Of a DNA stretch of 64,000 nucleotides, positions 9,899 to 63,340 are shown one piece after another (position 1 is the first letter of the stretch; every line of letters begins with the position of its first letter). The notes under the pieces are model-generated. The model did no database searches and was not told the DNA's origin. It worked only from the letters and a program-made list of their open reading frames with translations. The position numbers and the translations under genes were made by a program. Source of the DNA: Alphaproteobacteria bacterium (GTDB lineage Bacteria; Pseudomonadota; Alphaproteobacteria; TMED109); assembly GCA_022825235.1 (NCBI GenBank), contig JAJDYI010000004.1, forward strand, positions 1-64,000, written 5' to 3'.

Positions 9899-10330
9899 TC
9901 AAAACGACGCACAGACCGTGGCAACTGTCCGCAGCACGGCCTTCTGGGCAAACATATCTTTGTACGCTTGAACAATCTGGTCGGTGCGCAGCAAGCCCGC
10001 ATCATCAACCCCGGTCAGGATCACGACGAGCTTGGACTTTTCGCGGATGATTGACCCTGCCGAGTCACGCCACTGCCCTGCAGCATCAAGGACGGTCAAG
10101 CCGGCCGGAAATCGCGGCGTGATCTCGTTCGCCAGGAAAGCGTTCCAAGCCTTGTCGCTGACGACTTCCGCGTCGGCCTGATTGCGGCCGAAGTACAGGC
10201 GGTACTCGGTGAACTGCCCGGTTCCTGCCGGACAACCCTCGACGTCGGCATACACACGTGTGCCGGGCAGGTGCCCGGCTGCAAGGATCACCGTGACTGC
10301 TGCCAGCCTGAAGCACCAGTGAGGCAGCAT
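9899..10330 (-). CDS. Secreted DUF3574 protein
   Basis: A protein of about 143 residues with an N-terminal signal sequence (MLPHWCFRLAAVTVILAAG), followed by the DUF3574 core. The conserved YRLYFGRNQADAEVVSDKAW, TPRFPAGLTVLDAAGQW and IREKSKLVVIL segments are clear. The biochemical function of this family is unknown. An in-frame ATG at 10348 would add six residues. I chose 10330 because an AGGTGA precedes it closely. The gene is convergent with the Nudix gene and divergent from aapJ. The 296 bp between it and aapJ must hold both promoters. Confidence 0.8.
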   Translation of the reverse strand: MLPHWCFRLAAVTVILAAGHLPGTRVYADVEGCPAGTGQFTEYRLYFGRNQADAEVVSDKAWNAFLANEITPRFPAGLTVLDAAGQWRDSAGSIIREKSKLVVILTGVDDAGLLRTDQIVQAYKDMFAQKAVLRTVATVCASF

Positions 10331-27828: not shown

Positions 27829-28324
27829 GCTGACCAAGCGACTGGTGCCGGCCGCCGTACTGGCCGCGGCAGTCGCAGGATGCGGGTTCGAGCCACTGCA
27901 CGGACCTGCGGTCAACGCCGCACTCAACGGAATCGACGTCACCCCGATCCCGGGCCGGGCGGGCGAACTGCTGTACCGGGCGCTGGTGGACCGGCTGCAT
28001 CCCGGCGGCCGGGCGGGCACCCCGGCCTACCGGCTCGATGTGATACTCCGGCAGACGAACTCGCCACTGGTCATCGACCAGTCGACGTTCGTTCGCCGGT
28101 ACGACGTTCATCTACAGGCGCACTATCAGCTGATCGAAGTTGCCACTGGCCGTGAGATCGGGGGCGCGGAGCGGGATGCACACGCCAATCACGGCGTCAT
28201 TCCCAACGAGATCTACGGCACCCTGGTGGGCTCGCAGGCGGCCTTGCAGCGAGCTGCGAACGTGCTCGCTGGCGTCATTGCGACCGACGCCGCGCTCCTG
28301 ATTCGGTCAGATCTGCGCGGATGA
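27818..28324 (+). CDS. lptE: LPS-assembly lipoprotein LptE
   Basis: A 168-residue outer-membrane lipoprotein that plugs LptD for lipopolysaccharide insertion. A lipoprotein signal ends at Cys22 ([14 protein letters not shown]), and GCGFxPLxG is the usual LptE start. Conserved parts follow: [25 protein letters not shown] and [13 protein letters not shown]. The start is a TTG at 27818, overlapping the leuS end by 11 bp. A GTG inside the signal peptide would be too late. The stop overlaps the holA ATG by 4 bp. Confidence 0.88.
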
Positions 28325-29328
28325 AGCTCTCCGCCCACCAGGTCGAAGGATTTTGTGCCGGTCCGTCGCCGGACATGCGGGCCGTACTGCTGTACGGACC
28401 GGACCAGGGGCTTGTTGCGGAGCGGTTCGAGCAGATCTCGGGGGCGCTGGCACCCGACCTGAACGACCCCTTTCAGGTTGTGGGTCTGGACGGCGCTGAG
28501 ATCGCCGAGGACATGGCGCGATTTCTCGACGAAGCCGCGCAGATCTCACTTGACGGCAGGCGACGCGTGCTCCGAATCCGCCATGCCGGCGAAGCCGTGA
28601 CCGCGGCGATCGACGCGTTCCTCAAGTCCGAGGGGGACGACGCGGTAGTCCTGGTTCAGGGCGGCGACCTCGGGCCCCGCTCAGGCCTCCGCCGGTTGTT
28701 CGAACGTGCGGAAGCTGCAGCCGCTGTACCCTGCTACACGGACGATGGCCGGGCGGTTGAGCGGCTGCTCCGCGATGTCCAGAAGTCGCACGGCATCGAG
28801 ATTGATTCGGATGCCTACGCCTACCTGGTCGACCGGCTCGGGCGCGACCGTGGCGTGACCCGCAGCGAGCTCGAGAAACTGGTCCTGTTCGCGGGGGACG
28901 GCGGCACCCTCGACTACGAGTCCGCCGCGGCGCTGGCCGGTGACAACGCGCTGCTCGGTGCGGACACGCTTGCCGACGCTGTCGGACTGGGCCAGGCAGC
29001 AGACGCGTTCCGCGCCCTCAGGCGGCTGTACGAGGAAGGGCTTAACGAGATCGCGGTGCTCCGGCGACTCCTCCGCCACTTTCAGAGTCTGCACGCGGTG
29101 ACCGCGGCACCGGATCCCCTGCTGGCCCTGCAGAAACTGCAGCCCCAAATCCACTTCAAGCGGAAAGCCGCGGTGGAAAGGCAGGCCAAGCAGTGGTCCG
29201 GGCCGCGCGTTGAGCAAGTTCTGCGCCTGCTCGGGCGTGCCGAGCAGTTGTGCAAGCGAACCGGGGTGCCGGGGCGGGCGGTCGTGCAGGAAACGGTACT
29301 GCGGATCGCGCGGATCGCCGGTACCTGA
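28321..29328 (+). CDS. holA: DNA polymerase III delta subunit
   Basis: A 335-residue clamp-loader subunit that opens the beta sliding clamp. The N-terminal segment VLLYGPDQGLVAERFEQI is a degenerate AAA+ P-loop, as usual for delta. The C-terminal collar region has YEEGLNEIAVLRRLLRHFQS. Start ATG 28321 forms an ATGA overlap with the lptE stop. It ends 13 bp from the convergent parB, an order (holA facing parB) that is widespread in alphaproteobacteria. Confidence 0.94.
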   Translation: MKLSAHQVEGFCAGPSPDMRAVLLYGPDQGLVAERFEQISGALAPDLNDPFQVVGLDGAEIAEDMARFLDEAAQISLDGRRRVLRIRHAGEAVTAAIDAFLKSEGDDAVVLVQGGDLGPRSGLRRLFERAEAAAAVPCYTDDGRAVERLLRDVQKSHGIEIDSDAYAYLVDRLGRDRGVTRSELEKLVLFAGDGGTLDYESAAALAGDNALLGADTLADAVGLGQAADAFRALRRLYEEGLNEIAVLRRLLRHFQSLHAVTAAPDPLLALQKLQPQIHFKRKAAVERQAKQWSGPRVEQVLRLLGRAEQLCKRTGVPGRAVVQETVLRIARIAGT

Positions 29329-29341
29329 CACTCCCACGGGC

Positions 29342-30241
29342 CTACCGGCCGCGCAGGCGCCGGAGAATTTCATCCAGTTGGACGCTGCGCTGGTAGCGGA
29401 TACGAACCTCTCCGCGGCCTCCCCTGGCGCGGACCGCCACCTCCATCCCCAGCGCTTCCTGGAGTTCGCGCTCGAGCTCCTGAAGATTCGGATCCCGCTC
29501 GGGCGTTGTCCGGCCGTGGCGGCGTCGGCGCACAAGCCGCTCCGCGGCCCGGGCATTCATGCCGCGCCGCACGATCACGCGGGCCAGTTGCAGCGCGTCT
29601 GTGCATCCGACCAATGGCCGGGCAGAGCCGGCACTCAGCTCACCGGTACGGACCATCTGCTGGACCGCCTCGGGCAACGATAGCAGCCGGACGGCATTGG
29701 CCACGTAACTCCGGCTGCGGCTCACCGTCTCGGCAGCCTGCGCCTGCGTGAAGCCAAATTCGGTCATCAGGCGGCGCAGACCGCCGGCCTCCTCGATCGC
29801 GTTGAGGTCAGCCCGCTCCATGTTCTCGATCAAGGCCAGACCCGCGGCTTCCTCGTCACTGGCCGCCCGGACCCGCACCGGGACCCGGTGCAGGCCTGCC
29901 TTCTGAGCCGCCCGCCACCGTCGCTCCCCGGCCAGGATCTGGTAGCGGCCGACTTGGTCAGGGTCGGGGCGTGCCAGGATCGGCTGCAGCATGCCCGACT
30001 GCCGGATCGAACCCGCCAGGGACGCAAGATCATCGGGATCAAAGTCGGCGCGTGGCTGGAACGGGTTCGGGCTCAGGTCGGTGATGTCCAGCGCGCCCTC
30101 GGGCCCGGCCGGTGGTGGCACCGCCTCTCCGGGAGCCGGGGTCTCTAACGCCACGCCTGTGGCGGCCCGCTCCCTGACCAGGGACTCGAGCCCGCGCGAG
30201 AGACCTCGGCGCGTTCGCGTCTTGCCGGGTTTCTTGGTCAC
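29342..30241 (-). CDS. parB: Chromosome partitioning protein ParB
   Basis: A 299-residue CTP-dependent DNA clamp that loads at parS and positions the origin. The CTP-binding GERRWRAAQ motif is at 105-113 and ENMERADLN at 139-147. The helix-turn-helix is around 164-185 (GFTQAQAAETVSRSRSYVAN), and the C-terminal dimerisation domain ends in VQLDEILRRLRGR. The N-terminus KKPGKTRTRRGLSRGLESL binds ParA. The ATG overlaps the parA stop by 4 bp. I found no parS palindrome by eye in this window. Confidence 0.95.
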   Translation of the reverse strand: MTKKPGKTRTRRGLSRGLESLVRERAATGVALETPAPGEAVPPPAGPEGALDITDLSPNPFQPRADFDPDDLASLAGSIRQSGMLQPILARPDPDQVGRYQILAGERRWRAAQKAGLHRVPVRVRAASDEEAAGLALIENMERADLNAIEEAGGLRRLMTEFGFTQAQAAETVSRSRSYVANAVRLLSLPEAVQQMVRTGELSAGSARPLVGCTDALQLARVIVRRGMNARAAERLVRRRRHGRTTPERDPNLQELERELQEALGMEVAVRARGGRGEVRIRYQRSVQLDEILRRLRGR

Positions 30242-31041
30242 GACCGCATCCGATACGCCTCGTGCGTCAACAGCTCTCGGGCGAGCGCCACATAGGCCTG
30301 TGACGCGGGTGAGTGCCGATCGTACAGGAGTACCGGCTCCCCGGCCGACGGAGCTTCGGCCACCCTGACGCTCCTCGGGATCTCGGTCTTGAACACCTTG
30401 GACCGGAAGTGCTCGCGCACATCACGTTCCACGTCGCGCGCAAGATTGGTGCGCGCGTCGACCATGGTCAGTAACACGCCATCGAGCGCGAGATTCCGAT
30501 TGGGGCCGGCCCGCGTCATCTCGATGGTCTCCATCACCTGGGCGAGCCCCTCCATCGGCAGGAATTCGCACTGGAGCGGAATGATGACCCCGTCGGCCAC
30601 CGCAAGCGCACCCAGCGTCAGCCAGCCGAACGACGGCGGGCAGTCGAAGAAAAGGTCCGTGTACGTGGTGCGGAAGGCGGCCACCGCCGCACCTAGATGC
30701 CGCGCGTCCACCTGCGGGCGGCCTTCGTCGATCCGGGCCAGCGCCGATGTGGCAGGCACCAGGTCGAGACCCTCGACAACAGTGGTCCGGACCGCGGCGG
30801 CGGGCGGCGTCCGGCCCTCCAGGAGTTCGGTGACGCCCGGCCGCCGATCTCCCAGCGCAACCCCGAGGCTGGTCGACGCATTCCCCTGGGGATCCATGTC
30901 GACCAGCAGCGCCTTGCGCCCCGCCGCCGCGAACGCCGTAGCCAGGCTGACGGCCGTGGTGGTCTTGCCCACCCCGCCCTTTTGGTTCGCGATGGCGACC
31001 ACCCGTCCGTTGCCAGGGACGCGGCCCGGCGTGCGGCTCAC
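30238..31041 (-). CDS. parA: Chromosome partitioning ATPase ParA
   Basis: A 267-residue deviant-Walker ATPase that moves ParB-parS complexes. The P-loop KGGVGKTT is at 21-28 (NQKGGVGKTTTAVSLATAF), switch I is LVDMDPQGNAS, and the Asp of FFDCPPSFGWLT follows. Start GTG 31041 was chosen because its GTGA overlaps the stop of the upstream smr gene by 4 bp, and the frame further upstream is non-coding in character. A GTG at 31002 is the only other option. Translation is probably coupled to smr. Confidence 0.95.
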   Translation of the reverse strand: MSRTPGRVPGNGRVVAIANQKGGVGKTTTAVSLATAFAAAGRKALLVDMDPQGNASTSLGVALGDRRPGVTELLEGRTPPAAAVRTTVVEGLDLVPATSALARIDEGRPQVDARHLGAAVAAFRTTYTDLFFDCPPSFGWLTLGALAVADGVIIPLQCEFLPMEGLAQVMETIEMTRAGPNRNLALDGVLLTMVDARTNLARDVERDVREHFRSKVFKTEIPRSVRVAEAPSAGEPVLLYDRHSPASQAYVALARELLTHEAYRMRS

Positions 31042-31547
31042 CGGGTGGAGCGGATGCGGATCAGCAGGTGAAACGCCCCGTCGCCGCCATGGCGTTTCGG
31101 TGCCGGCTCGCAGCCCAGCACGACCGCGCGGAGGGCCGGGGAACGGATGATTTCGGGCAGAGCCTCCCGAAGCGCACCCGTAGGTCCGGCCTCGCCGAGC
31201 TTCCGCCCGGTGACCACCCGCACGCAACGGTGGCCGCCGGCCTGGGCGTCCAGCACGAACTCCCGCACCGCCACCCAGGCCTCCGACACGCGAAAGCCGT
31301 GCAGGTCGAGCGTCCGGGTCGGCGCAATCCGGCCCCGGCGAAGCTTCTGCCGGGTCGACCGGTCGATCCCATTGTGCGGCCGCGTCGACGGAACCGGGCG
31401 CCGGATCGGGCTGGTGTCCGTCCGGGATGCAGCAGGATCGACGGGGGGGCCGTCCCGTGGCGGTCGTACCCGCGGTCGCAGCAGGCTGGCCTCAAACTCG
31501 GCGATCTCCTGCGGGGTCGCAGTGGAAGATGTGCGGCGTCGGGTCAT
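31038..31547 (-). CDS. Smr/MutS2-domain protein
   Basis: A 169-residue protein. The first half is basic and Pro-rich. The second half is an Smr nuclease domain: LDLHGFRVSEAW (the DxH motif), VRVVTGRKLGEAGPTGALRE and a final GGDGAFHLLIRIR. Smr domains cleave DNA or RNA; bacterial SmrB is a nuclease acting on collided ribosomes. In related bacteria this gene commonly follows mltA. Here it sits between lutC and parA, with 4-bp overlaps at both ends. Start ATG 31547. Confidence 0.88.
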   Translation of the reverse strand: MTRRRTSSTATPQEIAEFEASLLRPRVRPPRDGPPVDPAASRTDTSPIRRPVPSTRPHNGIDRSTRQKLRRGRIAPTRTLDLHGFRVSEAWVAVREFVLDAQAGGHRCVRVVTGRKLGEAGPTGALREALPEIIRSPALRAVVLGCEPAPKRHGGDGAFHLLIRIRSTR

Positions 31548-52637: not shown

Positions 52638-53315
52638 TCAGTCGAGGTACCTTTTCCAGATAGGGTTCGATAAGCCTTGAAGCATCTCCCGATGGGCATT
52701 CGTTTCATGTTCGTCGGGCGCATACACCCGCTCGGGCCAGTGCGACGGGGTGGCCGCGGCCGCCGGACGCGCAGAGGCCGGCGCCGTATCGAGCAGGAAC
52801 GACCCTTGGCGCCCGCCCGTCATTTCGATGTAGACCTCAGCAAGCAGTTGCGCGTCGATCAGGGCTCCGTGGCGGTGGCGACGTACGGCGAGGTCGATGC
52901 CGTGTCGGCGGCAAAGGTTGTTCAGGGCCACGAACCCGCCGGCCAACTCCATGGTGTCGAGAATTTCCCGGCCTGCCGACACGCCGTCGCGACCCATCCT
53001 TGACAGCTCGGCGTCGAGAAACCCAAGATCGAACGGGGCATTGTGGAAGAGCAGGGGCGATTCCCCCAGGAATTCGAGGAAACGGTCGGCAACCTCCGGA
53101 AAGGTCGGTTTGTCAGCCAAGAATTCTTCCGAAAGTCCGTGAACCTGCCGGGCTTTCTCGGGAATGTCGCGCCTCGGGTTCACGAACGCGTGCCAGGTGC
53201 GTCCGCTCGGCACGTTATTGCGGAGTTCCACGCACCCAATCTCCACAATTCGGTGCCCTTCATCCGGACGGAGGCCGGTGGTTTCGGTATCCACGGCCAC
53301 AAGTCGGGTCGTCAT
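52638..53315 (-). CDS. dnaQ: DNA polymerase III epsilon subunit (proofreading exonuclease)
   Basis: A 225-residue DEDDh exonuclease that proofreads the replicative polymerase. Exo I is VDTETTG (Asp9, Glu11), Exo II HNAPFDLGFLD and Exo III RRHGALIDAQLLAEVY with the catalytic His. A C-terminal tail (PIWKRYLD) may bind the alpha subunit. Start ATG 53315 has GGGAGAGG upstream. A TTG at 53321 is less likely. The gene lies 42 bp after coaE on the same strand. Confidence 0.95.
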   Translation of the reverse strand: MTTRLVAVDTETTGLRPDEGHRIVEIGCVELRNNVPSGRTWHAFVNPRRDIPEKARQVHGLSEEFLADKPTFPEVADRFLEFLGESPLLFHNAPFDLGFLDAELSRMGRDGVSAGREILDTMELAGGFVALNNLCRRHGIDLAVRRHRHGALIDAQLLAEVYIEMTGGRQGSFLLDTAPASARPAAAATPSHWPERVYAPDEHETNAHREMLQGLSNPIWKRYLD

Positions 53316-53357
53316 TCTCAACCTCTCCCGAAGCGATTCCGCCGCTCGAGCACGGTC

Positions 53358-53975
53358 CTAGCGGAGTGGCCTTGGCCGACCCCTCTGGCGCGGGCCATAT
53401 CGCCGGAGCGCCTGCCGGAGGACCCGTAACGCGACGCGGAGCCCCTGTCCGGTCGGGATGACGACATCGGCTCGGCGCCGCTGTTCCGACGTCGGCATCT
53501 GCCGGGCCAGGATCCCGCGCAACCGGCGCTCATCCATGTTTGGCCGCTGCAGTACGCGCTGGCGCTGCAGGAAACCTGGCGCCGAAACTACCAGCACCGC
53601 GTCACAGTGGACATCACCACCGGTCTCGAAGAGCAGTGGAACGTCGAGCACGACGACGGCTGCGCGGGCCAGCGACTGGCGGCGCAGCCAGACTTCCCGC
53701 GCCCGGGCAACGTACGGATGCACGATGGCCTCCAGCCGCCGCAGTTCCGAGCGGTCGGAAAACACTGTTCGCGCGAGTGCGGCCCGGTCGATGGCGTCGC
53801 CGGACGCGACCTCGGGAAAGGCGGCGACCACGGCCGCAGTGGCCGCCCCGCCTGGACCGGTGACAATGCGGGCGACAGCGTCGGAATCAAACACCGGGAC
53901 GCCGAGTCGTACACAAAGTCCGGCTGTCCGGCTCTTGCCCATCGCGACAGTGCCCGTCAGGCCGAGAACAACCAC
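53358..53975 (-). CDS. coaE: Dephospho-CoA kinase
   Basis: A 205-residue P-loop kinase for the last step of coenzyme A synthesis. The P-loop is GLTGTVAMGKS (8-15). Ala replaces the more common Gly/Ser in GSxGxGKS-type loops. Other family parts are VPVFDSDAVAR, VVVLDVPLLFETGG and RILARQM-like LRGILARQMPTSEQRRRAD. The C-terminus is Arg-rich. Start GTG 53975 shares one base with the aroE stop TAG. Confidence 0.93.
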   Translation of the reverse strand: MVVLGLTGTVAMGKSRTAGLCVRLGVPVFDSDAVARIVTGPGGAATAAVVAAFPEVASGDAIDRAALARTVFSDRSELRRLEAIVHPYVARAREVWLRRQSLARAAVVVLDVPLLFETGGDVHCDAVLVVSAPGFLQRQRVLQRPNMDERRLRGILARQMPTSEQRRRADVVIPTGQGLRVALRVLRQALRRYGPRQRGRPRPLR

Positions 53976-54838
53976 TACCGGGCCAGTGTTGCGAGTACGT
54001 GCTTCCGAAGCTCCTGATCCACTTTCGGCCGCACGCCGAACCAGCCCTCGAATCCCGGGACCGCCTGATGCAGAAGCATTCCGAGACCGTCCACTGTGGC
54101 CAGTCCGCGACGTGAAGCCGTCCGCAGCAGTTCGGTTTCGAGGGGCGCATACACGATATCTGCCACGACTGCATCAGCAGCGAGACCTGCAAGATCGGGG
54201 TTCAACGTGGGGCCGTCCGTCATTCCGAGGGTCGAGGCATTGACCAATAAGCCCGCCCCATCAAGCTCGGCTTCGAGCGCGCGCAGACCAACCGCGCGCG
54301 CATTGTCGAAATGCTGGACGATATCTTCGGCCTTGGTCAGAGTACGGTTGGCGATCACGATTTCGCCATCGAGTTCGGCGCGAAGACCCGCGACCACGGC
54401 GCGCGCTGCACCGCCTGCGCCCACTACGACAGCGCGCCGATCCGACTGACCCCATCCGGGTGCCTGCTCGCGCAACCCCTCAATGAAGCCGTCCACATCG
54501 GTGTTCCTTCCCAGTAGACGTCCGTCTCGGACGAAGATCGTGTTGACTGCCCCGACCACGCCGGCCAGTGTGCTTTCCTCATCGACGAGTGCCCGCGCTT
54601 CCACCTTGTGCGGAACCGTCACATTGCAGCCGCGAAATCCCAAGGCAGGCAGTGCTCGGAGCGCTGTTGCAAGATGCCCAGGTTGCACCGGTAACGGCAC
54701 GTACGCCGCATCCAGCCGGTACTTGCGAATCCAGAAAGAGTGAATGCGCGGCGACAGCGAGTGCCCAACGGGCCAGCCCACGAGCCCGGCCACCTGCGTT
54801 GCACCGGACGAAGCCCTCGTTGGCGCAACCTCCGTCAT
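53975..54838 (-). CDS. aroE: Shikimate dehydrogenase
   Basis: A 287-residue NADP-dependent enzyme converting 3-dehydroshikimate to shikimate. Substrate residues are in WPVGHSLSPRIH, with catalytic Lys78 in NVTVPHK and Asp114 in RNTDVDGF. The cofactor loop is VVGAGGAARAV, with the NRT motif (IANRTLTKA) for NADP. The ATG overlaps the ppsR stop by 4 bp. maf, which usually lies between ppsR and aroE, is missing. Confidence 0.96.
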   Translation of the reverse strand: MTEVAPTRASSGATQVAGLVGWPVGHSLSPRIHSFWIRKYRLDAAYVPLPVQPGHLATALRALPALGFRGCNVTVPHKVEARALVDEESTLAGVVGAVNTIFVRDGRLLGRNTDVDGFIEGLREQAPGWGQSDRRAVVVGAGGAARAVVAGLRAELDGEIVIANRTLTKAEDIVQHFDNARAVGLRALEAELDGAGLLVNASTLGMTDGPTLNPDLAGLAADAVVADIVYAPLETELLRTASRRGLATVDGLGMLLHQAVPGFEGWFGVRPKVDQELRKHVLATLAR

Positions 54839-55674
54839 TTGGAGTCCTGTCGCTTGCGCATCAGTTCCAAGACCGATGCCGACGTCTCCTCGATGGATCG
54901 GCCAGTCACGTCAATGGTGGGCCAGCCCATGCGTGCATACATCCGGTTGGCATCAATGACTTCATCACGAATCCGGACGCGATCCGAATAATCTGCATCA
55001 GCTCCCACACCGATCGATGACAGTCGCGCACGCCGTAGAATCGAAAGGCGGTCAGGCGATGTGGTGAGAGCCACGATGAGCGCACTCCCGGTACCCTCCT
55101 CGATCCAGCGTGGAAGCTCGATGCCAGGAACCACCGGTATGTTGGCTACGCGAACACCCCGGTTGGCCAAGTACATTGCAGTAGGCGTCTTCGAGGTCCT
55201 GGAAACGCCGACCAGCACCACGTCTGCGTCCTCCGCTTGGGCGGCAAGCTGCCCATCGTCATGAGTCAGCGCAAATTCCATCGCTTGGATCCTCTGGAAA
55301 TACTCTCGGTCAATCCTGTGTTGTGCGCCCGGCCGACTCGCGGCAGGTTCGACCCCTAGGATCGTGGACAGGGCGGCCACCACGGGATCCAGGATCGCCA
55401 GCGTCGGCACCCGCAGGCGGCGACACTCCGTCTCAAAGACAGTGCGCAGTTCCTCGTCCGCCAGCGTGTAAAGCGCGATTCCCCGATACTGGTCGATCTG
55501 CTTGAGGACGCGGTTCATCTGGGATTGCGTGCGGACCAGAATCGCAGTGTGTTCAACAGTTTCGATATCGCGAAAATACGCGACTGCAGCGCGGGCAACC
55601 GTACTTACCGTCTCGCCGGTCGAATCCGAAACGAGATGAATGTGGAAAGGCCTGCTGGAAAACGCCTGATCCAT
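54835..55674 (-). CDS. ppsR: Pyruvate,phosphate dikinase / PEP synthase regulatory protein (DUF299)
   Basis: A 279-residue bifunctional kinase/phosphorylase that switches PPDK or PEP synthase off and on. The N-terminus HIHLVSDSTGETV and the P-loop-like GVSRTSKTPTAMYLA (156-170) are diagnostic. The C-terminal RSIEETSASVLELM is also typical. Start ATG 55674 was chosen because homology begins right there. Residues further upstream are not conserved. It is the first gene of the minus-strand run ppsR-aroE-coaE-dnaQ-tim44-mltA. Confidence 0.93.
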   Translation of the reverse strand: MDQAFSSRPFHIHLVSDSTGETVSTVARAAVAYFRDIETVEHTAILVRTQSQMNRVLKQIDQYRGIALYTLADEELRTVFETECRRLRVPTLAILDPVVAALSTILGVEPAASRPGAQHRIDREYFQRIQAMEFALTHDDGQLAAQAEDADVVLVGVSRTSKTPTAMYLANRGVRVANIPVVPGIELPRWIEEGTGSALIVALTTSPDRLSILRRARLSSIGVGADADYSDRVRIRDEVIDANRMYARMGWPTIDVTGRSIEETSASVLELMRKRQDSK

Positions 55675-56333
55675 GTGTGGAAAACTTCCGACGTAGGCCT
55701 CGAACCAACCCACCGCTGGCCAGTCCCCCGAACTCGCCGGGGCCTCGCACAGGTTATACGAAACAGTGTGAGCCAACGCTCAGAACGACGAAAACTCCTT
55801 GCAGACCGCCCTCCCACAGCTCTTGACAATTGTTCATTGTGGCATCAATCGCTGATCAGACAATATATTGATAACGTTCTCCAAGATCGCTCAACACATT
55901 TGTCCGTATAGATGACCGTTATCGTATTCACTGCAAAAGGTGGGTAAAAATCTCTAATTCCGATAGCCAACACGCCAATAACTATTACCTACATATATAG
56001 ATTAGTGCATGTTTTGAGTTGCAGGCGGAGCCGAGAACACGTATATGGTACGTTCGGCATGCCAGCCATTCGCCGGCACCGCTTCCCAGCTTGTGATCCG
56101 CATTGACAGTCTGCAGCACAGGTTGACTCGTTCCGGTGCGTTGGTAGCGTTACCGGCTGTGCGATCGGATCCCGCAACGCGGATTAGGTCCGGCTCGCGG
56201 GACATCGGCCCTATGGACGCGTCCGGATTTAAGGGCGATCTGGCCGGTTATCTGCTCCAGGGTTGATTGTTCTGCCCCTGCAGCCAGCAACTTCTCTTCC
56301 GCTGTTAAATCGCTACTCCACGGATTTTTTCTT
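55675..56333. other. Candidate chromosomal replication origin (oriC) between ppsR and rho
   Basis: A 659-bp gap between divergent genes. By hand count, 55821-56020 is about 63% A+T in an otherwise GC-rich window. It contains A+T runs such as CAATATATTGATAACG and ACATATATAGATTAG that could melt. TGTGGAAAA (55676-55684) fits the DnaA-box form TTWTNCACA. GTATTCACT (55924-55932), GGTGGGTAA (55939-55947) and TTACCTACA (55985-55993) each differ from it at two positions. The palindrome ACAATTGT lies near 55826. In many alphaproteobacteria oriC lies between this ppsR/aroE/dnaQ group and the hemE/rho side. The region also holds the promoters of both genes. No small gene or RNA is evident. Confidence 0.5.
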
Positions 56334-57593
56334 ATGCATCTCCAGGAATTGAAACGTAAATCGCCTGCCGATCTTCTTGCCTTTGCCGAAACAGAGGGCG
56401 TCGAGAACGCCGGTAACCTGCGAAAGCAGGACATCATGTATGCGATCCTGCGGGCGAGGGCAGATCGGGAAGAGCCAATCTACGGCGAGGGTGTGATTGA
56501 GGTGATGCAGGATGGGTTCGGATTTCTGCGCTCGCCAGAATCCAATTACTTGTCCGGGTCGGACGACATCTACGTCTCACCGACCCAAATAAAACGTCTT
56601 GGTCTTCGAACTGGAGACACAGTCGAAGGAGAGATCAGTCAGCCGGGTGAGGGTGAGCGTTACTTCTCGCTGCTTAAAGCTACGAAGATTAACTTTCGAC
56701 TGCCTGAGGAAGTTCGAAGCCGCGTCAATTTTGACAACCTCACGCCTTTGTATCCGGACAGTGCGATCAAGCTGGAGGTGGAAGCTGGCCTGCCGGCAGG
56801 CGACAACACGTGCCGGGTGATTGAGCTGGTCGCACCCTTGGGAAAGGGACAGCGCGGACTGATTGTCGCGCCTCCAAGAACCGGAAAGACAGTGGTGCTG
56901 CAGAACATTGCCCACGCAATCGAGGAAAACCACCCGGAAATCTATCTGATTGTGCTGCTCATCGACGAACGCCCGGAGGAAGTCACCGATATGCGTCGTT
57001 CGGTTCGGGGAGAGGTCGTGAGTTCCACTTTCGACGAGCCGGCCACGCGGCACGTACAGGTAACCGAGATGGTGAACCGTAAGGCGAAGCGGCTGGTTGA
57101 GAATGGTTACGACGTGGTCATCCTGCTGGATTCCATCACCCGTCTGGCACGGGCCTACAACACGGTGGTCCCGAGTTCGGGTAAGGTCTTGACCGGCGGT
57201 GTTGATTCGAACGCATTGCAGCGCCCAAAACGGTTTTTCGGGGCTGCCCGGAACATTGAAGGCGGGGGCTCCCTGACCATTATCGCGACCGCACTGATCG
57301 AGACCGGATCGCGGATGGACGAGGTGATTTTCGAGGAGTTCAAGGGCACCGGGAACTCGGAAATCGTGCTCGACCGAAAGCTGGCGGACAAGCGCGTGTT
57401 CCCGGCGATAGATATCGCCAAGTCCGGAACACGGAAAGAAGAACTCCTCGTGGAAGCGGAAGACCTCACGAAGATGTGGGTATTGCGGCGGATTCTGTCA
57501 CCGATGGGAACATCCGACGCGATGGAATTCCTGTTGGAACGCCTTCGGCCGACCAAGAACAACGCCGAGTTCTTCGATACGATGAATCAGTAG
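56334..57593 (+). CDS. rho: Transcription termination factor Rho
   Basis: A 419-residue hexameric RNA helicase. The N-terminal helix bundle starts [19 protein letters not shown], followed by the RNA-binding cold-shock fold ([20 protein letters not shown]). Walker [10 protein letters not shown] is at about 178-186, with Walker [17 protein letters not shown]. The Q and R loops are intact ([20 protein letters not shown]). Codon usage is less GC-extreme than in neighbouring genes, as often seen in highly conserved genes. It is transcribed away from the proposed origin. Confidence 0.97.
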
Positions 57594-62020: not shown

Positions 62021-63340
62021 TTGGCCGGAGACACGATTGTCGCCCCGGCGAGCGGACCGCCACCAAGCGCCATCTGCGTGATCCGGATTTCGGGGCCAGC
62101 TACCAAGGAAGCGCTATACCGACTATGCGGAACGGAACTCCGCCCGCGCCGCCTGGCCCGTGTCACACTGCGCGAAATGGAACGGGCCGTCCCTCTCGAT
62201 GAGGGGCTGGCGGTGTATTTTCCCGGCCCCGACAGCTTTACCGGCGAGGATGTCGGCGAACTGCACGTGCACGGGAGCCGGGCTGTCATCGATGGTGTGA
62301 TCGATGAGCTCTGCCGGCTTCCCGACGTCCGTCCGTCCGACCCGGGTGAATTTTCCCGGCGGGCCTTTGCCAACGGGAAACTCGATCTCGTCCAGGCCGA
62401 GGGCATTGCTGATCTTGTGGCGGCGGAGACACGTCTCCAGCGCATTCAGGCCATCCGGCAGCTGCAGGGCGGCCTCAGTGAACTCTACGACTCGTGGCGT
62501 TCCCGAGCCATCACATGTTTGGCCGAGGCCGAGGCTTCGCTCGACTTCATCGACGAAGCCGACGTAGGCTCAGTCGCGCTGGATCCGGCGAAACCTCGGT
62601 TGCTGGCCAGTGATATCGCCGCACATCTCGACGACGACCAGCGCGGCGAGCGATTGCGTGAAGGGTTTCGCGTCGCCGTGCTGGGCCCCCCCAACTCGGG
62701 GAAATCCAGCTTGGTGAACCTGCTGGCACGACGGGAAGCAGCCATCGTCTCGTCCACTGCCGGGACGACGCGCGACATCATCGAAGTGCATCTGAACTTG
62801 GAGGGGTGGCCGGTCACGCTCGCCGACACCGCAGGAATCCGGGAATCCGGGGACTCGATCGAGCGCGAAGGCATCCGCCGGGCATTGAACTGGGCCAAGC
62901 AGGCGGACGTAACGGTGTTCTTGGGCGACCTTTCCACCGACGAGGACGCGGCTGTCAGTGCGACAACTGCGCGGACGCTACGGGCCTGGAACAAGTCTGA
63001 CCTCGGCTCGCCGGCAAGGGATCCGCGCGTCACGAACGATGATGTCGTGATTTCCTGCCGGACCGGCGAGGGCATCGACGAGCTTCTCGAAGCCCTGCGA
63101 TCCGCAATCGCATCGGTTGGCGGTCACCCGGAAGATGGATTGGCCCTGACGCGGGTACGGCACCGGCAAGCACTGAAGCGCGCCGCAGAGGCGCTACGAA
63201 GCGCAGCCCAGGTCGAGTCAACTGAGCTGGCCGCTGAAGAGTTGCGGGCCGCGGTCCATGCGCTGGGCCGGATCACGGGCCGCGTCGACGTGGAGGACGT
63301 GCTGAACCGGGTATTTTCCACCTTCTGCATCGGGAAATGA
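62021..63340 (+). CDS. mnmE: tRNA modification GTPase MnmE
   Basis: A 439-residue GTPase that, with MnmG, makes the 5-carboxymethylaminomethyl group on U34 of several tRNAs. The N-terminal folate-binding domain starts TIVAPASGPPPSAICVIRISG. The G1 loop is GPPNSGKSS at 222-230, with STAGTTRDIIE and LADTAGIRESGDSIE as G2/G3. The C-terminal FCIGK motif with the essential Cys is present. Start TTG 62021 was chosen as the only start before the conserved N-terminus. mnmG, its usual neighbour, does not follow. Confidence 0.96.
   Translation: MAGDTIVAPASGPPPSAICVIRISGPATKEALYRLCGTELRPRRLARVTLREMERAVPLDEGLAVYFPGPDSFTGEDVGELHVHGSRAVIDGVIDELCRLPDVRPSDPGEFSRRAFANGKLDLVQAEGIADLVAAETRLQRIQAIRQLQGGLSELYDSWRSRAITCLAEAEASLDFIDEADVGSVALDPAKPRLLASDIAAHLDDDQRGERLREGFRVAVLGPPNSGKSSLVNLLARREAAIVSSTAGTTRDIIEVHLNLEGWPVTLADTAGIRESGDSIEREGIRRALNWAKQADVTVFLGDLSTDEDAAVSATTARTLRAWNKSDLGSPARDPRVTNDDVVISCRTGEGIDELLEALRSAIASVGGHPEDGLALTRVRHRQALKRAAEALRSAAQVESTELAAEELRAAVHALGRITGRVDVEDVLNRVFSTFCIGK

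Follow-up and report, generated by a model that had tools for sequence, protein, structure and literature searches.

The chromosomal origins of Caulobacter (Cori) and Rickettsia prowazekii both lie between hemE and COG1806 (PMC1914354). Cori functions with G-boxes of moderate strength plus W-boxes so weak that they must be bound cooperatively (PMC4468827). In Wolbachia, hemE and COG1806 have become separated, and the predicted ori lies beside hemE (PMC1914354). Here, we conclude with high confidence that the intergenic region between ppsR and rho is the chromosomal replication origin of an uncultured alphaproteobacterium. This placement rests on a skew switch seen in two genomes, on conservation, composition and parS proximity, and on class-wide ppsR synteny. 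An initial annotation had already proposed the region as a candidate oriC, and skew, composition, DnaA-box score, parS and ppsR synteny all support that reading.

The locus resembles the Caulobacter crescentus and R. prowazekii origins in lying directly upstream of ppsR/COG1806, in being A+T-rich, and in having weak DnaA boxes and an IHF-consensus site. It differs from them in the departure of hemE, with rho now directly bordering the origin, and in that no CtrA sites were found and very few DnaA boxes are recognizable. As in the predicted origins of Wolbachia and other Anaplasmataceae (COG1253 - oriC - hemE), the hemE/COG1806 pair has been split by rearrangement; there, however, the predicted origin is beside hemE, whereas here it is beside ppsR. 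The locus shows the general features of a bacterial oriC: a contig-scale skew switch, an A+T-rich putative unwinding element and origin-proximal parS. From the Cori-type set it has the ppsR flank and a predicted IHF consensus site, and lacks the hemE flank and CtrA sites. It is thus a bacterial oriC at a ppsR-linked locus and, because rho replaces the hemE flank, not a strict Cori-type origin. Chromosome copying almost certainly starts in this stretch, which is otherwise an ordinary alphaproteobacterial origin locus, with the exchange of hemE for rho setting it apart.

The window analyzed here comprises bases 1-64000 of a 216,463-bp contig (C51) from a draft genome of 87 contigs (3.85 Mb). Within it, the interval 55675-56333 is the whole 659-bp gap between the start codons of two divergent genes, with the ppsR ATG at 55674 (minus strand) and the rho ATG at 56334 (plus strand); these coordinates match exactly the region first proposed. 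Both genes are identified by family models: ppsR (54835-55674, minus; NF003742, 302.7 bits against a cut-off of 225) and rho (56334-57593, plus; TIGR00767, 668.8 bits). The ppsR side continues with aroE (53975-54838, minus; NF001312), coaE (53358-53975, minus; TIGR00152) and dnaQ (52638-53321, minus; NF004316, 213.3 bits against a cut-off of 196), and the rho side carries mnmE (62021-63340, plus; NF003661, 535.4 bits). Also on the ppsR side are holA (28321-29328, plus; TIGR01128, 155.5 bits against a cut-off of 80) and parB (29342-30241, minus; TIGR00180, 171.7 bits). Family models therefore bear out the earlier naming of holA, parB, dnaQ and mnmE as neighbors; the fifth, parA (30238-31227, minus), is better described as parA-like, since the best of its ParA-type matches (NF041546) falls under the model cut-off. 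The gene hemE is indeed missing from the neighborhood, and was found on another contig (C36). The PpsR family corresponds to COG1806 (DUF299), the defining flank of the Caulobacter and Rickettsia origins. A missing hemE thus counts against oriC less than had been supposed.

The gap stands out in base composition. Its A+T content peaks at 63.0% in 55821-56020, the richest 200-bp window of the 64 kb, in agreement with an earlier hand count of about 63%; the runner-up, at 10329, has 56.5%. The gap also holds the richest 150- and 200-bp windows of the full 216-kb contig, while two stretches near 213-216 kb slightly exceed it in A+T content when windows of 500 bp are used. Of all 50-bp duplexes in the contig, the one starting at 55975 is the least stable, making 55975-56025 a likely DNA unwinding element, and this A+T-rich core is the likely site of melting as predicted from sequence. 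Across the genus the non-coding gap is retained, with conserved blocks in an alignment of seven genomes. The probable oriC proper is an A+T-rich non-coding block (55676-56060), conserved in the seven genus genomes and bounded in their alignment by the ppsR start and by a length-variable, indel-rich spacer; it contains the contig maxima of A+T content and DnaA-box score and the keto-skew minimum.

We find one strong candidate DnaA box. The site TTTTCCACA (55676-55684, minus; TGTGGAAAA as read on the opposite strand) has a single mismatch to TTATCCACA and is invariant in 7/7 genus genomes. This is the one good box noted in the initial annotation, and the only site in the gap with ≤1 mismatch. 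The several two-mismatch candidates noted alongside it number five. They are CTTTCCACA inside ppsR (55641-55649, minus), TTATCAATA (55866-55874, minus), which overlaps the IHF-like site and is not conserved, TTACCCACC (55939-55947, minus), TTACCTACA in the unstable core (55985-55993, plus) and TGATCCGCA in the variable part (56094-56102, plus). The site at 55641 encodes the conserved Phe-His (FH) of FHLHLVSDSTGE, and its sequence probably reflects coding constraint. Box positions turn over among relatives: three carry TTATACAAA 8 alignment columns from the TTACCTACA site, and one (G005) has a perfect TTATCCACA in its ppsR-rho gap.

Sites with ≤2 mismatches are nevertheless more frequent than expected (6 in ~900 bp, against 2.0; P ~0.02), and a weighted DnaA-box score over 660 bp peaks in the gap at 7.5 (contig mean 0.58, sd 0.89), with 5.5 as the highest value elsewhere. 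A genome-wide search gave nine scattered copies of TTATCCACA and no clusters of perfect boxes. The DnaA of this organism has the recognition motif RDHSTV and a PRQ motif, so that a consensus near TTWTNCACA is expected; this pattern has two matches in 216 kb, one of them in the gap.

The gap also contains an IHF-consensus site, TATCAATATATTG (55861-55873, minus), which is the sole exact WATCAANNNNTTR in the 64-kb window (0.28 expected). The site is partly conserved, its core CAANNNNTT being invariant in seven genomes. No CtrA site with ≤1 mismatch was found in the gap, an Rfam search of it returned no RNA families, and a scan of it for consensus promoters and terminators gave no match. A further block, CGCACAGGTTATACGA (55746-55761, plus), is invariant at 16/16 bases across the seven genomes and does not match the consensus for DnaA, IHF or CtrA.

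Strand skew switches sign at the gap. Cumulative GC skew within the window bottoms out in the 55-56-kb bin and climbs thereafter; over the whole contig, the minimum is at 56,387 for cumulative GC skew and at 55,993 for keto skew. Among 2-kb bins on this contig, 25/28 left of the gap are negative and 66/80 right of it are positive, with nearly all stretches sampled from 64 to 204 kb showing positive GC skew. These values describe one 216-kb contig plus samples of other contigs in the 87-contig draft. A contig from the same genus (G001:C8, 443 kb; 442,976 bp) switches at the same gap: in 20-kb blocks, six on the left range from -0.011 to -0.035 and seven on the right from +0.015 to +0.042, and sampled blocks are negative over 7 to 167 kb and positive over 169 to 429 kb. 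As a control, a complete genome from the class (G033) switches skew within ~11 kb of its ppsR-hemE gap; in a second (G038) the signal is too weak for comparison. Local 6-kb skew at ppsR loci across the class (23/44) is uninformative as a measure. A skew minimum had been named beforehand as the signature to look for, and a long-range minimum is present at the gap in two genomes, at the scale of contigs rather than of a closed chromosome.

Could the gap merely be the divergent promoter region of ppsR and rho, its A+T content and conservation arising from promoters and its skew from divergent transcription? The gene pair is divergent, and a block ahead of rho (56116-56154, plus), highly conserved in six genomes, possibly represents the rho promoter; it includes a promoter-like TTGACT-16-TAGCGT at 56123-56150, which the consensus promoter scan did not recover. 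However, the skew extends 56 kb to one side of the gap and 160 kb to the other, and it is seen in genes of either orientation. Left of the gap, GC skew is -0.012 in plus-strand and -0.049 in minus-strand genes; on the right, the values are +0.038 and +0.012. Because both orientations share the same sign, and gene numbers are balanced (22/22 left, 61/57 right), divergent transcription does not explain the skew. The least stable part of the gap is also >300 bp from either gene, and promoters alone would make parS proximity and the class-wide synteny of ppsR with the origin coincidences. We thus consider a promoter-only explanation very improbable.

Partition sites lie close to the proposed origin, an independent line of evidence that the initial annotation did not include. 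Two perfect parS sites, TGTTTCACGTGAAACA, are located at positions 71458 and 73443 of C51, 15-17 kb from the gap, and flank mnmG (L031:7550-9415; named from sequence, not from a family search). parS sites are present in every genome of the genus, with a reversed-pattern control giving 0. In five (G001, G003, G004, G005, and G006), the only sites found (≤1 mismatch) share a contig with the gap and lie at a distance of 15-18 kb; in G002 the gap and parS fall on separate contigs. The parA-parB-holA genes (28321-31227) are on the ppsR side, and both parS sites (L031 7458-9458) are on the rho side, by mnmG. Throughout the genus, parB is on the ppsR side, 24-26 kb from the gap where the contig is shared (not in G005), while three outgroups (G038, G033, and G010) carry it next to rsmG, on the side of hemE and rho.

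The position of parS at 71-73 kb, together with a TA-skew minimum at 64,722 (8.7 kb off), might instead indicate a true origin within ~10-15 kb of the gap but outside it, for example near mnmE/mnmG and parS; skew minima are uncertain at the kilobase scale and do not place an origin to the base pair. Yet A+T content, duplex instability and DnaA-box score are all highest in the gap itself, and the Caulobacter and Rickettsia origins are marked by ppsR (PMC1914354). There is, in our judgment, only a very slight chance that the origin is such a neighboring site.

Synteny across the class ties the origin to ppsR. Among 109 ppsR loci tested, hemE is on the opposite flank in 89, always divergent across an intergenic gap, and rho is the nearest among the genes searched for in 10; another 10 are undecided, mostly for short flanks. 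Of the 10 rho-flanked loci, seven belong to this genus, including two entries (L007 and L061) for G001; the G002 contig ends within the gap, so rho adjacency is not visible there. In 7/7 genus genomes, hemE is on a different contig from the ppsR gap. Other genera of the same family retain hemE at the gap, and its loss from the origin is therefore derived in this genus. That the origin departed with hemE, as proposed for Wolbachia, where the predicted ori sits by hemE once split from COG1806 (PMC1914354), or that it adjoins dnaA on another contig, is extremely improbable, given that the sampled stretches of the dnaA (C14) and hemE (C36) contigs are all positive with no skew switch, that A+T content upstream of hemE is just 31%, and that perfect DnaA boxes are nowhere clustered in the genome. 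The dnaA contig, raised earlier as a possible home for the origin, shows no origin signature in the stretches sampled.

The ppsR loci of Bradyrhizobium and Rhodopseudomonas (L123 and L090) are similar in having no hemE across the gap and rho nearby, but there, unlike here, a gene for a HemJ-like small membrane protein separates the gap from rho. In a Rhodospirillales MAG (L072), an apparent hemH occupies the usual place of hemE. These HemJ-like and hemH names are read from sequence alone. Because different genes occupy the usual hemE position in these loci, hemE probably moved away from the origin on more than one occasion.

With the origin in the ppsR-rho gap, we infer the following roles, and their order, for the individual boxes, IHF site and melting site. 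DnaA, whose gene is on another contig, would nucleate next to ppsR, on the conserved TTTTCCACA box, before spreading cooperatively across the weak, degenerate boxes. An IHF-like protein would bend the DNA at 55861-55873, and the A+T-rich core (~55975-56025) would open, allowing two forks to depart in opposite directions. ParB, bound 15-17 kb off at the two parS sites on either side of mnmG, would then segregate the freshly copied origin region. We tentatively suggest, as somewhat doubtful, that the origin stayed by ppsR through genus-specific remodeling (hemE gone, rho moved up, parAB-holA shifted across the origin, away from parS, and rsmG lost) and works almost without canonical DnaA boxes, using one conserved near-consensus box, cooperative weak sites and IHF.

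Placing the origin in an uncultured genus makes replication rates estimable from metagenome read depth. It also indicates that, once hemE has departed, ppsR by itself can serve as the marker of the origin, and provides a case in which parAB and parS are on opposite sides of the origin.

Three further perfect parS sites occur within ~200 bp at the end of another contig of the same draft (G000:C34; L140 9990-10214). We rejected this trio as a second origin: it occupies the last 212 bp of the contig, an inverted-repeat-like end rich in G/C runs; no clear skew switch is seen over the final 10 kb, and relatives lack a counterpart. An assembly artefact, a contaminant or another replicon are options for its source.

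The genus also shows an apparent loss of rsmG (gidB), which encodes a 16S rRNA methyltransferase and is otherwise nearly universal. A Pfam model detected it in 0/7 genus genomes, and the source genome was also negative with an NCBIfam model. The same search recovered rsmG in 13/14 controls and also in all three outgroups, where it is located ~15-17 kb from ppsR.
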